Positions 8,493 to 14,959 of a stretch of 47,665 bases of DNA are shown in pieces. The stretch lies in NCBI GenBank assembly GCA_947591495.1, contig CANQDG010000013.1, forward strand, positions 1-47,665. Direction: 5' to 3'. Position numbers and translations under genes: made by a program. Source of the DNA: an uncultured Bacilli bacterium. GTDB lineage: Bacteria > Bacillota_I > Bacilli_A > ML615J-28 > CAG-313. The notes below the pieces were generated by a model that was not told the DNA's origin, did no database searches, and saw nothing but the letters and a program-made list of their open reading frames with translations. Each line of letters starts with the position of its first letter. Positions within the stretch are counted from its first letter, which is position 1.

Positions 8493-11191
8493 TTAAGACT
8501 TCCTAAAATTTCTTCTACTACATCATTAATTTTACTAATATCTTTACCACCTGATTGAGCAAAATCAGGTCGACCTCCGCCATTACCACCTGTGATAAGG
8601 GCAGCCTTTTTAACTAGCATTCCACAATTTACGGGACTATTTTTAGCCTTTGCAATAAAGATTATTTTTTCATTATTAATAATATTAGCAAAGAAAATCA
8701 CACATTTTTCATAATCATTAGCTATTTTATCAACTATTTCTTTAAGAGCATTAATATCAATGTTTTCTACAACATCTACTAAAACGTGACCATTGATTGT
8801 TTCTAGCATTTTTTGTTCGAAATCACGATAATTACTAGATAAATTATTACGTTTTAGGGCATCATATTTTTTATCTAAATCTTTTTGATAAGCCCTAACT
8901 TCTTCATCGAATTTTCGATAATTAATAACGTCTTGATAGCTACCTATGATTTTAGGTGCGGTAAAAGTAACTGGTTCAATTGGATAGTTATTCGCTTTAG
9001 CTTTTTGATAAGTTTCATCAATTTTATTTAATAATTTATTGATATTTTCCTTTATATTAGATAAATTATCAGTAACTTTAGTTAAAACATTATTTCCAGC
9101 TACTGCTTCAATTCTAAAAATACCAGATCCTTTTGATTCAATACTTGTTATGGCAAAGTTTTTGATTTCATTTAAATGTTTAACATGTGTTCCACCACAA
9201 AGTTCTTTACTAAAATTCATATCCACTAAGCGAACAACATCACCATATTTTTCACCAAAAACCGCCTGTGCACCCATTTTTTTGGCTTCCTCAGGAGTTG
9301 TAAGAATCGTTTTTACTTGATAATCAGCATTGATTTGTTCTTGTACTAATTTTTCAATAGCTAATAGTTGTGCAACTTGAATATTTTCGTAATGGTTAAA
9401 ATCAAATCTAAGACTATTATTAGTTACTTGCGAACCTTGTTGGACAACATGAGAACCTAAAACACTGCGTAATGCTTCATTTAATAAATGCGTTGCCGAA
9501 TGATTAATTGATACATTATGCCGATATTCTAAATTAACGCTTGCTTCAATTTCTTCATTATTATATAAAACTACATCTTTAGTATCAATAATATGAGAAT
9601 GTTGACCGTTTGGTAATTTCACTGTATCTAAAACATTAAACTCCATCTTTCTAACTGATATTGTTCCAATATCACCAATTTGTCCTCCCATTTCCGCATA
9701 AAACGGTGTTTTATCTAAAACTATTTGTAATAAACCAGAGGAATAATCTTTCATTTGACCATCTTTAAAAATAGCAATAATTTTACTTTTACTTGTTAAA
9801 GTATCATAGCCAACAAATTCGCTATTTTCTTTAAAATTTAATAATTCAGCATTTTGTGATCCCATTGAATCATTATCACCATTTGCTGTTCTTGCTCGTA
9901 AACGTTGTTTTTCAAGTTCTAATTTAAACGCTTCTAATTCTACTTGATAACCATTTTGGGAGGCAATTTCAACTGTAAGTTCAATTGGAAAGCCAAATGT
10001 ATCATATAATTGAAAGGCAACTGCACCACTAATTACTTTATTATTACCTAATTCTTTCATAATATCAGATAACAATAACTCACCACGGCTTAAAGTTTTT
10101 AAAAAGTTTTCTTCTTCAATTCTAATCATCTTTTCAACAATTGGTTGTTTATCTTGTAAATAACCATAATAATCTTTCATATTATCAACAACAATGCCAA
10201 CTAATTGATATAAAAACGGACGATCAATTCCTAAATTACGTGCATAACGAACAGCTCTTCGTAAGAGTCTTCTTAAAACATAGCCTCGTCCTTCATTCGA
10301 AAGCATAGCACCATCGGCAATCGCAAAGGTTACACTTCGAATATGATCAGCAATTACTCGAAAAGCCATTTGATATTTTGGATCATAATAAGAATGATTA
10401 GTATTTTTTTCTAAAAATTTAATTAATGGCAAAAAAAGATCCGTTTCATAATTGGTTTCGGTATTTTGAAAAATACATGTTAACCTTTCTAAGCCACTAC
10501 CAGTGTCAATATTTTTACTAGGTAGTTCAGGATAATTTTCACGTTTTACACCAGGCGTTGAATTGAATTGACTAAAAACAATATTCCAAATTTCAATATA
10601 GCGATCATTTTCAATATCATCGGTTAATAATTTAATTCCTAAATTATTAGGATCATACTTTATTCCACGATCATAAAAGATTTCCGTATCCGGTCCACAA
10701 GGTCCTTCCCCTATTTCCCAAAAATTATCCTTAATTGAAACAAGATGATTTTCTTTAATACCTAAAGATAGCCATTTATTATATGTTTCTACATCTTCAG
10801 GATAGTATGTTATATAAATATTATCGGGGTCAAAAGCAAACCATTCATTTGAAAATAATAATTCATATGCCCAACTTAAAACTTCATCGCGAAAATAATC
10901 ACCAATGGAAAAGTTACCTAACATTTCAAAAAAAGTATGATGACGAGCTGTTTTACCAACATTATCGATATCATTAGTTCTAATACATTTTTGGGCATTA
11001 CACATTCTTTTATTTTTAGGGGTTTCCCGGCCATCGAAGTATTTTTTTAAAGGTGCTACTCCCGCATTTATCCATAAGAGGCTTGGATCATTTTGGGGAA
11101 TCAATGAAGCACTATTAATAATTTCGTGATTTTTACTTTTAAAAAAGTCTAACCACATTTGCCTTATTTGATTTGAAGTTAAATTTTTCAA
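8489..11191 (-). CDS. alaS: Alanyl-tRNA synthetase AlaS
   Basis: AlaRS charges tRNA-Ala. The product (900 residues) has the class II catalytic core near the start (LDFFKSKNHEII, FFEMLGNFSIGDYF), the editing-domain zinc motif HSATH with CGGTH further on, and the C-Ala glycine-rich block GGNGGGRPDFAQSGGKD near the end. The start is taken as TTG at 11191, encoding M-K-N-L-T-S-N; AGGAAAGGAAG lies eight bases before it. The ATG at 11231-11233 that would give 914 residues sits in the loop of the T-box terminator and has no ribosome site. It heads an operon with ruvX and the DUF1292 gene. Expression should rise when uncharged tRNA-Ala accumulates. Confidence 0.95.
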   Translation of the reverse strand: MKNLTSNQIRQMWLDFFKSKNHEIINSASLIPQNDPSLLWINAGVAPLKKYFDGRETPKNKRMCNAQKCIRTNDIDNVGKTARHHTFFEMLGNFSIGDYFRDEVLSWAYELLFSNEWFAFDPDNIYITYYPEDVETYNKWLSLGIKENHLVSIKDNFWEIGEGPCGPDTEIFYDRGIKYDPNNLGIKLLTDDIENDRYIEIWNIVFSQFNSTPGVKRENYPELPSKNIDTGSGLERLTCIFQNTETNYETDLFLPLIKFLEKNTNHSYYDPKYQMAFRVIADHIRSVTFAIADGAMLSNEGRGYVLRRLLRRAVRYARNLGIDRPFLYQLVGIVVDNMKDYYGYLQDKQPIVEKMIRIEEENFLKTLSRGELLLSDIMKELGNNKVISGAVAFQLYDTFGFPIELTVEIASQNGYQVELEAFKLELEKQRLRARTANGDNDSMGSQNAELLNFKENSEFVGYDTLTSKSKIIAIFKDGQMKDYSSGLLQIVLDKTPFYAEMGGQIGDIGTISVRKMEFNVLDTVKLPNGQHSHIIDTKDVVLYNNEEIEASVNLEYRHNVSINHSATHLLNEALRSVLGSHVVQQGSQVTNNSLRFDFNHYENIQVAQLLAIEKLVQEQINADYQVKTILTTPEEAKKMGAQAVFGEKYGDVVRLVDMNFSKELCGGTHVKHLNEIKNFAITSIESKGSGIFRIEAVAGNNVLTKVTDNLSNIKENINKLLNKIDETYQKAKANNYPIEPVTFTAPKIIGSYQDVINYRKFDEEVRAYQKDLDKKYDALKRNNLSSNYRDFEQKMLETINGHVLVDVVENIDINALKEIVDKIANDYEKCVIFFANIINNEKIIFIAKAKNSPVNCGMLVKKAALITGGNGGGRPDFAQSGGKDISKINDVVEEILGSLK

Positions 11192-11209: not shown

Positions 11210-11246
11210 TAAAAAATAAAAATCGTTCCTCATTAAGGAACGATTT
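11210..11246 (-). terminator. T-box terminator hairpin
   Basis: AAATCGTTCC and GGAACGATTT (11220-11246) form a 10-bp stem with loop TTAATGA, then TTTTTATTTTTT on the minus strand. It is the competing structure of the T-box antiterminator. The loop contains an ATG that is not the alaS start. Confidence 0.92.
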
Positions 11247-11424
11247 AAATTCGCGGTACCATCCTTCTTATAAAACTTTTAAAAGTTTTATCTCTTAATT
11301 AATTTTAACGCAAATTAATATTGCGGGAATGATTAATTCCTCTATAAAGGAGCTTCAAACAACTTTTTTGCAATTTTCACACCATCAATTGCTCTCTTGG
11401 AAAAAAGTACTTGTTTTACTAATC
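11218..11424 (-). promoter_or_regulatory. T-box riboswitch, alanine specifier GCT
   Basis: The alaS leader carries a complete T-box. Stem I begins near 11424 (GATTA paired with TAATC), with an AGTA loop-E element, AGAGAGC AG-box and GGTGTGAA distal loop. The specifier loop reads GAAGCT, placing GCT (alanine) at 11351-11353. The T-box core TGGTACCGCG lies near 11252-11263 and pairs with the NCCA end of uncharged tRNA to form the antiterminator. The gene downstream is alaS, which matches the specifier. No clear promoter is visible just upstream; it may lie within the end of the preceding gene. Confidence 0.95.
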
Positions 11425-11445
11425 TTTATTTAACGATTTTTTATA

Positions 11446-13191
11446 TTAAGCTGCCTCTTGTGAAGAATTGTTTTCTTCCGAGGTTTCAGTGTTTTCATCA
11501 CTAGGAGAAGGATTTTCAGCAGCTAAACGTTCTTGTTCTTCTTTTTCTTTAGCTTCTTTTTTCAATCTTCTTTGTAGTTTTTCATATTCACGTTCAATAC
11601 GTGCATTATTTTCTAATCTTTCTTTTTCTTTTGCTTCAGCTTCTGCAACTTCTACAGCAAGTTCAGATGGTAATGATTCAGCAATAAATTTCTTTAATAA
11701 TTCTTCATCAAACTCACCAGTATTAGAAACCATCAAGAAATTACCACCTTTTGGTGACTTAGCTGCTAATACCATTCCTGGATATGATTGTAAATAATTA
11801 AGAATATCAGCATCTGTAGCACAGAAAGTTACGCGGTAATAATTGTTTGTCTTTTGCATTACCAAATATGGGCGTTTACCAACAAGGAACTTATGTTGAG
11901 TATTATTAGCATTAGTAACAACACTTAAATTTTCACCCTCAATAGATTTAGCAAATTCAAGCATTTCTTCATAAGTTGGCTTGAATACTTTAGCAGCCTT
12001 TGCACGAGCAGCAAGTCGTTGTTCGCGTAGTTCACGAGCTCTTTCAGCTGCAGCTTCTTCTTCAGCTTTAGCTTGTGCAATTGATTCGAAACCAAGTTCT
12101 TTTAATAAAGCGCCACGCTCTTCTTCTAAAAGTTTTACTTTTTCATCAAAAGCATTCTTTTCATCATTATATTGATCCAAATCATCATTAACACGAACAT
12201 TTTCTTCATCAATAGTCGCATTTAATGTTTCTAATTCTTTATTCAAACTTTCTAATTCAGTTTTAGCAATACCTAATTGAACTTGATTTTGTAATTCAAC
12301 ATAATCATTATGAACTTTTTGATATTTTGCATCTACGACTGCTTTACTAGATTTTAATTCTTTAACTTGTGATTGTAATTTTTCTAAATCATCACTATTA
12401 ACATTAACAGTTCCTTCTTCAAGAGCTACAGTATTAGGTGTTTTAACAACAAAACGTTCATCGGTATAATTATTTAAAGAATATAAAATTAATAATTCGG
12501 CTTTTGAATAAGATTCTTCATGAATGTGATGCCAATGATTTAATAACTCTTCTTTATCTCTTGCAACAAATTCTTCGTTTGTCGAATATAGTTTTTTATT
12601 TCTAGCAAATAATAAGTAAAGAATTGCTCCACCTATGATAATTCCTAAAGCTATATTCCAAAAATTATTATTAGCAAGTTCAACTTTAGTATAATTTTCG
12701 AGAACAGTAAATCTTAAGCAAATAACGTCTAAAACGAATGCTAAATAAACAACAACGTCTACAACATTTACTTGATTTTTAGTTAATGAAAGATTGATCT
12801 TGTCCATTGACAATTGGAAAATAGTGAAAACAACAGCTAACAAAGCAAAACCAATCATCAAAAATAAATATGTATTATAAGAATAAGCAATTGTTGGAAC
12901 GGCTCTATTCATCATAAAAATCAAATAAGTGAATGCAGAAGTAAAATATGCAAAGATTGGCAAATAACTTGCATATGTTTGGAAACGATTTGTTGGGCGA
13001 TAATTAGCAAATTTTTTCAAAGTAATTGCGATATTTAAACCCATAACCACAATTGGTAAAACAATAAATTTAATAATGCTTTCAGCCATATTAAAAGTTT
13101 TACCGAAAGGAATAAACATAATAGCATTAAGCCATAATCCTATTGTAGATAGGATAAATATTAAACGACGATTTTCTTTTGGATTATTCAT
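11446..13191 (-). CDS. Unrecognised six-TM coiled-coil protein with YjbR-like domain (paralogue A)
   Basis: I do not recognise this 581-residue family. It has six predicted membrane helices (about 10-29, 39-58, 73-94, 105-126, 141-163, 177-197), a histidine cluster HWHHIH at 219-224, a long coiled coil (about 263-400) and a C-terminal globular domain (about 403-508) with YEEMLEFAKS, HKFLVGKRPYLVMQ and YYRVTF. A highly charged tail follows. The upstream neighbour has the same architecture and matching motifs, so the two are paralogues, 19 bases apart in one operon. The globular domain resembles MmcQ/YjbR-type double-wing domains (a gKxYlvlq strand, then a helix and SPKGGNFLMV near the end); that is a pattern judgement only. 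The ATG follows AGGTAGG. Function unknown; cytoplasmic coiled coils anchored in the membrane are implied. Confidence 0.75.
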   Translation of the reverse strand: MNNPKENRRLIFILSTIGLWLNAIMFIPFGKTFNMAESIIKFIVLPIVVMGLNIAITLKKFANYRPTNRFQTYASYLPIFAYFTSAFTYLIFMMNRAVPTIAYSYNTYLFLMIGFALLAVVFTIFQLSMDKINLSLTKNQVNVVDVVVYLAFVLDVICLRFTVLENYTKVELANNNFWNIALGIIIGGAILYLLFARNKKLYSTNEEFVARDKEELLNHWHHIHEESYSKAELLILYSLNNYTDERFVVKTPNTVALEEGTVNVNSDDLEKLQSQVKELKSSKAVVDAKYQKVHNDYVELQNQVQLGIAKTELESLNKELETLNATIDEENVRVNDDLDQYNDEKNAFDEKVKLLEEERGALLKELGFESIAQAKAEEEAAAERARELREQRLAARAKAAKVFKPTYEEMLEFAKSIEGENLSVVTNANNTQHKFLVGKRPYLVMQKTNNYYRVTFCATDADILNYLQSYPGMVLAAKSPKGGNFLMVSNTGEFDEELLKKFIAESLPSELAVEVAEAEAKEKERLENNARIEREYEKLQRRLKKEAKEKEEQERLAAENPSPSDENTETSEENNSSQEAA

Positions 13192-13210
13192 ATTTTAAAC
13201 CTACCTTCCA

Positions 13211-14860
13211 TTATTCCTCGGTTTTTTCAGCATCGCTTGCTTGCGCTTGAGCAGCAGCTTTTTCGGCAGCTCTCTTAGCAGCGCGTTCTTTAGCACGTTC
13301 AGCAGCTTTAGCTTTTCTTTCAGCAGCTTTCGCAGCGGCTTCTGCAGCAATTTGTTTTTCAGCAGTTTCATATGCGTCTTTAAGATATTTACGAATTTCT
13401 GCTATCTTAATATCTGTCTTACCTTTATTAACAAATCTAAGCCAGTTGTTACCTTTTAAATTTTTTGGTACACTAAATGTATCTGGACTTGTCTTAATGT
13501 AATCAACAAATTTTTCTGAACTAGCAATAAAATTAATACGATAATCATTATTGGTAGCTTGAAGAACTAAATACATTTTCTTACCTAAAGAGAATTTTAA
13601 TAAATTACCTTTAGCATTTTCGGCAACTTTAACCGTAGTATTAGTTGCAGCAAAACTCTTAGCATATTCCACAATTTTTTCAAATGGTGGATTAATATTT
13701 TTAATTTTTTGTTTAGGTTCTTCATCAGTTGAAACTTTGACATGATCAAGTTTGAACTGATTAAATTCTTCTAAATCAGCATCATATTTTTCTTTAGCTT
13801 TACGAAGTTCTTCTTCATTTTTTTCTAATTCGCCTTTCTTTTCGCGGATTGCAGCTAAAGTTTGATTTTTTTCCTCAATTTGAGCTAATAAATCTGCTTT
13901 TTGTTTATTAATTTCTTCAAGTTCTTCTGATTCAGTGGCATTAGTATCAATATCTTCATCAGCTACGACAACTTCTTCAGGTTCTTCGTTAACATCTAAG
14001 TTAACGACTGTTGGTGCTTCTTTTTCTTCCTCTTCTTCAAACTCTTCTACTTTGTTAATTTCTAATTTATCATATTCTTCAGCATAATAATCAAAATAAT
14101 TTTCAAAATCATCTAATGTATCATTATATGCTCTATTATACTCAAGTTTTTTAATTAAATTATCATAAGAAGCAGTATTAGCATAGAAAACAAGTGTTTC
14201 ATCTTTACGGACAACTAGGCTAATATATTTGATACCAACACCAAGGGCTACTAATAATAAAATGTATATAACAAATAATAATGGGTTACCCAAATAATAT
14301 TCGTCAATTGATGAATAACCATCATTGTAAACATAATTTACACGGAATAAAACTACAACAAAGCATAATGTGATAATAGCAACAAATACATCTGTTAGAA
14401 TATTACCAACTTTGTCAAGTTTAGTAATTATTGTATGTAATCTTAAGATACAATAAATAGAAAATACCATATATACTACGAGTACCGCAATAATTATTCC
14501 TAAGGCCTTATTAGATACAGCACTTAACATTGAATATTCACTATAATTAAATGATAAAGTATAAACAAGATTAGTAATTGCACCTATTGTATAACAAATG
14601 GTGGGAAAATAACACATTGTAAGAACGACTTTAGAACTTTCACGATAACAATCCATCATTTTATATTTCTTCACTAATGGATAAATTGTTAATAAGATGG
14701 CAACAGCACCTAAAACAAGATCTACAATGAGTTCGATGTTTAAATTCTCAATTTTATTCAATCCAGGAAAAGATCTAAAAGGAACAGCCACAATTATACC
14801 TATTATTAAGCCTAATAATCCTAAGATTGTCATAATGGTTTTTTGTTTTTTTGTTAGCAT
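13211..14860 (-). CDS. Unrecognised six-TM coiled-coil protein with YjbR-like domain (paralogue B)
   Basis: The 549-residue product matches its downstream neighbour in layout. Six membrane helices (about 9-28, 42-63, 77-102, 118-141, 155-176, 192-217) are followed by a strongly acidic linker (265-315), a coiled coil (311-375) and a globular domain (390-498) with FEKIVEYAKS, LKFSLGKKMYLVLQ, TNNDYRINF and GNNWLRFV. The tail (500-549) is almost only Ala, Lys, Glu and Arg and probably one long helix. Both paralogues have a PF turn after helix 1. The ATG has AAAGGAGTGA just upstream and a strong promoter with a large dyad. No known family is recognised; likeness of the globular part to MmcQ/YjbR is inference. 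It may form a hetero-oligomer with paralogue A. Confidence 0.75.
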   Translation of the reverse strand: MLTKKQKTIMTILGLLGLIIGIIVAVPFRSFPGLNKIENLNIELIVDLVLGAVAILLTIYPLVKKYKMMDCYRESSKVVLTMCYFPTICYTIGAITNLVYTLSFNYSEYSMLSAVSNKALGIIIAVLVVYMVFSIYCILRLHTIITKLDKVGNILTDVFVAIITLCFVVVLFRVNYVYNDGYSSIDEYYLGNPLLFVIYILLLVALGVGIKYISLVVRKDETLVFYANTASYDNLIKKLEYNRAYNDTLDDFENYFDYYAEEYDKLEINKVEEFEEEEEKEAPTVVNLDVNEEPEEVVVADEDIDTNATESEELEEINKQKADLLAQIEEKNQTLAAIREKKGELEKNEEELRKAKEKYDADLEEFNQFKLDHVKVSTDEEPKQKIKNINPPFEKIVEYAKSFAATNTTVKVAENAKGNLLKFSLGKKMYLVLQATNNDYRINFIASSEKFVDYIKTSPDTFSVPKNLKGNNWLRFVNKGKTDIKIAEIRKYLKDAYETAEKQIAAEAAAKAAERKAKAAERAKERAAKRAAEKAAAQAQASDAEKTEE

Positions 14861-14885
14861 ATGCTCACTCCTTTAATTTTTAAAA

Positions 14886-14943
14886 ATCACAAACTAACAA
14901 GGAAGAAAATTTGTGATATATTCTAGACATATTATATCACAAA
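14886..14943. repeat. Triple half-site dyad over the promoter and start of the paralogue operon
   Basis: TTTGTGATATA (14910-14920) and TATATCACAAA (14933-14943) are perfect 11-bp inverted arms 12 bases apart, reaching from the -10 into the early transcript. A third copy of the core ATCACAAA lies at 14886-14893, spaced 24-26 bases centre to centre from the others. The arrangement suggests an operator with three half-sites; the two downstream copies could also form a hairpin in the 5' UTR. Confidence 0.65.
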
Positions 14944-14959
14944 GTCTTTTTTTTGTAAA
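14931..14959 (-). promoter_or_regulatory. Strong promoter of the paralogue pair
   Basis: On the minus strand TTTACA (14954-14959), 17 bases, then TATAAT (14931-14936) preceded by TGA give a near-ideal extended -10 promoter. Predicted start is near 14924, leaving a 5' UTR of about 60 bases. Confidence 0.85.

Follow-up and report, generated by a model that had tools for sequence, protein, structure and literature searches.

YjbR-type double-wing domains are common. The canonical MmcQ/YjbR proteins that we compared (PF04237; solved structures of E. coli YjbR, 2fki, of DR2400, 2a1v, and of PSPTO_3016, 3h9x/2kfp) are short and soluble or fused to soluble domains, and they keep the motif HxNKxxW without variation in all six sequences examined. 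The C-terminal double-wing domain of phage T4 MotA (1kaf, 5jlt), a protein without a membrane part, has been solved with DNA bound. We know of no double-wing domain in Rv3852 of Mycobacterium tuberculosis. This nucleoid-associated protein, likened here by description, shows in the excerpted text of its report that a DNA-associated protein can be anchored in the membrane through a helix of its own, in this case a single C-terminal helix rather than a six-helix domain (PMC8233713). For YjbR domains themselves, DNA binding like that of MotA has been proposed on structural grounds, and function is so far only predicted, as the excerpts of PMC7641849 put it. The same excerpts present MmcQ/YjbR-EVE fusions in which the YjbR domain serves as a module, sometimes with adjacent genes that both carry one; they describe neither a membrane domain in these fusions nor a membrane-anchored YjbR/MmcQ form.

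The two genes analyzed here, A and B, place a domain of this type in a membrane-anchored, sometimes paired, architecture, which is what is new about them, and the EVE partner is absent from both. They lie on the minus strand of the window, by which we mean the whole 47,665-nucleotide stretch of DNA analyzed (contig CANQDG010000013.1 of an uncultured Bacilli bacterium), with 19 nt between B and A:

14931..14959, minus strand: promoter-like site of the B-A unit (TTTACA, 17 nt, TATAAT, with TG ahead of the second hexamer)
14868..14874, minus strand: Shine-Dalgarno sequence of B, AAAGGAG, called from sequence
13211..14860, minus strand: gene B (549 aa), an open reading frame with full-length homologs in its own genus and family
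11446..13191, minus strand: gene A (581 aa), an open reading frame and paralog of B (BLASTP E 3e-17)

The promoter-like site has 11 of 12 consensus matches and an extended –10 element; its call rests on match quality and position, the whole region being no richer in promoter-like sites than shuffled sequence. Where the preliminary description had set the span of the pair at 11446–14943, both reading frames are borne out and the upper end is not, since it falls 83 nt upstream of the B ATG, inside the promoter-like site. The surrounding gene order we take to be polC, an unnamed membrane gene, GAPDH, an AI-2E-type transporter, B, A, alaS, a ruvX-like gene and a DUF1292-like gene; the AI-2E assignment was confirmed by Pfam. 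B and A also sit between the AI-2E gene and alaS in genomes G001, G003, G004, G005, G006 and G008. In G007 (97% complete) neither A nor B was found anywhere in the genome, and the AI-2E gene lies directly upstream of alaS. The pair looks like a two-gene unit of its own, inserted in a conserved neighborhood. Neighbor genes vary from family to family and are mostly housekeeping genes, offering no clue to function.

Beyond their pairwise match, A and B recognize one another in a genome-wide search (E 5e-12), which found them as the sole two copies in their own genome. The claim of an adjacent paralogous pair therefore holds, and all motifs quoted for the two C-terminal domains were located in their respective sequences. 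The common layout consists of membrane helices, a linker with coiled-coil periodicity, a domain of about 105 residues and a charged tail:

14204..14860, minus strand: B residues 1–219, six-helix membrane domain (AlphaFold2 pLDDT 87.3, pTM 0.84; family-wide homology)
14081..14173, minus strand: B residues 230–260, cytoplasmic helix after TM6, present in the model and kept in orthologs
13697..13930, minus strand: B residues 311–388, putative coiled coil (heptad score reached by 12 of 300 shuffles)
13361..13696, minus strand: B residues 389–500, YjbR-like (double-wing) domain (AlphaFold2 pLDDT 91.7; best Foldseek match 2fki)
13214..13360, minus strand: B residues 501–549, charged Ala/Lys/Glu-rich tail, from sequence and composition
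12592..13191, minus strand: A residues 1–200, membrane domain, homologous to that of B in one profile and tree
11986..12408, minus strand: A residues 262–402, coiled coil (heptad score reached by 2 of 300 shuffles)
11668..11985, minus strand: A residues 403–508, YjbR-like domain with the conserved Trp replaced by Phe (family profile E 2.7e-48; aligned with the folded B domain)
11449..11667, minus strand: A residues 509–581, charged tail, from sequence and composition

The six membrane helices, long coiled coil and charged tail of the preliminary description were each recovered. A hydropathy scan resolved six helices in B and five above threshold in A, where TM3 is weaker, and the AlphaFold2 model of the B membrane part has six long helices. 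Heptad periodicity exceeded that of shuffled sequences, clearly in A (2 and 3 of 300 shuffles reach the score) and less strongly in B. Both tails are rich in Ala, Glu and Lys, and heptad periodicity within them was not significant in the shuffle test. The A protein of G006 (L020:391-2970, minus strand) has a longer tail, in which Lys/Glu/Ala-rich repeats extend over several hundred residues and perhaps form a single stable helix.

The C-terminal domain very likely has a YjbR-type fold. From an alignment of 21 sequences, AlphaFold2 modeled the B domain at pLDDT 91.7 with the order H-E-E-E-E-H-E-H, and a Foldseek search of this model against the PDB returned E. coli YjbR (2fki) first (E 5e-4, probability 1.00, TM 0.61/0.66), as the only match with E < 0.001. 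DR2400 and PSPTO_3016, other solved proteins of the YjbR type, were also within the top nine. The MotA domain (1kaf, 5jlt) ranked next after YjbR, with probabilities of 0.98–1.00 within the top nine (0.99–1.00 within the top five) but a TM-score of about 0.45 and an rmsd of about 5. The frataxin-like YdhG/DUF1801 domains (9t2w, 2oc6) matched weakly (probability 0.92–0.93, TM 0.41) and ranked below YjbR; no sequence match to them was found beyond one member at E 0.06. The TM-scores are moderate, at about 0.6. Profile-profile comparison by hhalign of the family domain with the six canonical YjbR sequences gave 96.6% (E 6e-10, 101 columns), against 3.7% and 0.1% for comparisons with two other alignments. 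Pfam YjbR (PF04237) was matched by 9 of the 21 members, with a best E of 2.7e-5 but below the curated cut-off of 30.1 bits, which the B domain missed at 20.9 bits; 4 of 6 proteins from family f20 also matched it. In the reverse direction, a widened family profile retrieved short YjbR reading frames with the canonical motif from two f19 genomes (E 6e-5 and 1.6e-4). When the PDB was searched by sequence with the domain profile, in three versions, YjbR chains appeared only at E 0.3–1.6, behind unrelated matches, which does not by itself prove the YjbR link. Taken together, fold search, profile-profile match, sub-threshold Pfam matches and retrieval of canonical proteins uphold the resemblance to YjbR that had been suggested by pattern; for A the assignment rests on alignment and profile score, the fold model having been made for the B domain. 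Because the family keeps only the Lys and Trp of HxNKxxW, and the Trp has been lost from A in several genomes (the window's A has Phe), we conclude that the domain is a divergent, off-standard member of the YjbR-type double wings. Genome G000 also encodes a conventional YjbR-domain protein (224 aa, above the Pfam cut-off) at C2:3108-3407 (L064:1147-1821), next to what is presumably a tilS-like gene.

Searches of full-length A and B against curated families (Pfam, NCBIfam) yielded none that reaches its cut-off, and a literature search on DUF5655 gave no match. DUF4763 (PF15960) scored 24.4 bits against a cut-off of 30.1, over the charged linker only, and EPS_sugtrans/polyprenyl glycosylphosphotransferase (TIGR03025) scored 19.6 bits against 295.55, over positions 8–214 of a 445-position model; these, an LPXTG anchor and the other full-length matches were set aside as sub-cut-off effects of coiled-coil or helix composition. 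The pair had been called undescribed, and in the sense of curated families it is; yet it does not stand alone: the family occurs widely in the class, and A and B are its duplicated version. In the window's own family (f1), where the genes occur as the tandem A-B pair, 10 of 15 genomes have the YjbR-like domain and 12 of the 15 have a membrane part like that of B; incomplete bins or contig ends account for some of the absences. Three of 28 f2 genomes were positive, with the gene located elsewhere in the genome and, in most carriers, single. Two families of a second order of the class, f22 and f20, carry a single copy in 31/34 and 7/7 genomes, respectively, which encodes a protein of about 390–475 aa lacking both the long coiled coil and the tail seen in A and B. 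The family was found in none of 49 f13 genomes, and homologs were found neither on plasmids (query, the f22 domain) nor in phages (query, full-length B). The single named relative from a scan of genome contigs was a rabbit-gut Bacilli MAG.

Our account of the pair, held tentatively and at somewhat less than even confidence, is that A and B form a membrane-held double-wing pair, probably a hetero-oligomer and most likely touching nucleic acid. The six-helix domain would anchor each protein in the membrane, leaving both termini on the cytoplasmic side, and a flexible or coiled-coil linker would hold the YjbR-like domain away from the bilayer. A and B most likely join through their coiled coils and paired membrane domains, and the two matched double-wing domains would work as one binding head, which most probably would contact nucleic acid as the MotA domain does. 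Such a pair could link chromosome or RNA to the membrane, or it could regulate as a DNA-binding protein fixed there; most likely it serves to keep a double-wing head at the membrane's inner face.

The head's closest fold matches are a domain that binds DNA and a family for which DNA binding is predicted, and among the charged residues of f22 the basic ones are conserved most strictly; nucleic acid is therefore our best guess for its ligand. Across 21 f22 proteins, 14 of 15 basic positions are strictly kept compared with 6 of 13 acidic ones (p 0.011); f20 (13/14 basic, 10/16 acidic) and B (8/19 basic, 1/11 acidic) show the same trend without reaching significance. Counting against this reading, the domain does not carry a positive net charge throughout: values range in the window's A from –1 to –3 according to boundaries, stand at –3 in several A orthologs and vary from –7 to +5 in canonical YjbR. 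A net charge often near zero would sit well with the scaffold or sensor proposed in the preliminary description, read here as a pair that organizes a membrane complex and whose YjbR-like domain has a protein or peptide, not nucleic acid, as its ligand; long coiled coils with charged tails are typical of scaffolds. Directly ahead of the domain, moreover, f22 proteins share a strongly conserved linker motif, YEDV.VDPEF.KTSNQ followed by SIEYYIEKPKMFKP, as a docking peptide would be. We consider a scaffold or sensor possible but doubtful, given that the nearest folds belong to the YjbR and MotA double-wing group, that the conserved residues are biased to basic, and that no partner gene is linked to the family across the families sampled.

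The two halves of the proteins have separate histories. In the tree of membrane parts, A and B form separate clades (support 99/97 and 98/97), which places the duplication before the split of the sampled f1 genera. In the tree of C-terminal domains, built on few genomes and 109 columns, the A and B clades were both rejected (AU p 0.011 and 0.014). Consistent with this, the A and B domains of G008 are 45% identical to each other and 31–32% to their respective G000 orthologs, and those of G006 are 41% identical to each other compared with 39% and 29% to orthologs, while the membrane parts from both genomes follow the A/B split. The heads thus appear to have been kept alike by gene conversion or common constraint, as expected if they stand side by side in one complex or share one target. 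Strong divergence of the A proteins of G005 and G014, and the loss of the conserved Trp from A in several genomes, count against our account, as do the moderate Foldseek TM-scores. In G009 (L069:10447-12576, minus strand) one gene replaces the pair in the same chromosomal slot and encodes two six-helix domains followed by one YjbR-like domain; the halves of this 12-helix protein group together (94/93), and the gene is either an A-B fusion, which the AU test does not reject (p about 0.06), or a separate duplication. The retention of the pair after an old duplication, the concerted evolution of its C-terminal domains and this one-gene version with two membrane domains give indirect support for a hetero-oligomer, and we infer that A and B on balance probably assemble with each other. 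That they are independent homo-oligomers, adjacent through tandem duplication alone, seems improbable: single genes do suffice in f22, f20 and most f2 carriers, whereas nearly every f1 genome with a complete locus retains both A and B, the two are missing together in G007, and their C-terminal domains evolve in concert.

The membrane domain was modeled with AlphaFold2 on B residues 1–262 with 38 relatives (pLDDT 87.3, pTM 0.84), giving the six long helices followed by the cytoplasmic helix. A fold search found no match to it among solved structures; GPCR helices (probability ≤0.51, TM < 0.3) were taken as no match. By the positive-inside rule, the Lys-rich N-termini and the basic stretch following TM6 point to a cytoplasmic location for both ends of the domain. 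Mean identity across f22 is 81% for the C-terminal domain compared with 36% for the membrane part, so the former is probably the working part and the latter an anchor. One f2 protein (L071:9196-10635) carries the YjbR-like domain behind a single N-terminal membrane helix, as if anchoring counts for more than the six-helix domain. In the f20 genome G349, a second protein (L154:4278-6239, minus strand) joins the same six-helix domain to another small domain, present twice (RISFSFETINKGRTKLLRFGIKGKTLY...), which shows the six-helix domain to be a separable module. This small domain recurs in several f20 proteins; none of the curated families fits the G349 protein, and the repeated domain does not look YjbR-like in a profile comparison (3.7%). 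An alternative in which the six-helix domain is itself the active part, as a transporter, channel or membrane enzyme that the YjbR-like domain regulates from the cytoplasm, accords with the confident predicted fold of the six-helix domain and its recurrence beside another small domain but is quite unlikely in view of the lower conservation of the membrane part, with one invariant residue in the 38-sequence alignment, and of the single helix that stands in for it in one f2 protein.

Returning to the membrane-held double-wing pair, its stronger form would be a new kind of tether between membrane and chromosome, or a new kind of regulator bound to the membrane: a hetero-oligomer with specialized membrane domains, double-wing heads matched by concerted evolution and a membrane fold absent from solved structures; we regard this as rather unlikely. 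With an average identity of 81% over nine genera and a near-universal presence in two families, this membrane-fixed domain offers a strong and testable handle on the ligand of YjbR-type domains. Should DNA binding prove true, this would be an unrecognized means by which small-genome Bacilli fasten their chromosome, or a regulator, to the membrane.

Several loci depart from the common gene structure. In G014 (L157:7026-9031, minus strand) B is split into a membrane reading frame with EEAPAEE repeats and a YjbR-like reading frame that overlap by 1 base, either a real split or an assembly frameshift. The B reading frame of G012 (L155:1133-2521, minus strand) runs into sequence that we take to resemble GTP-dependent PEP carboxykinase, and L155 is probably a chimeric contig. 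Within the window, the B-A unit is bordered downstream of A by a further element outside the pair:

11233..11442, minus strand: T-box leader of alaS (Rfam RF00230, 93.5 bits, E 3e-20)

This leader starts 3 nt past the A stop codon and should control alaS. The listed alaS ATG at 11233 sits within the T-box terminator, and the true start is likely the TTG at 11189–11191, preceded by AGGAAAGGAAG.
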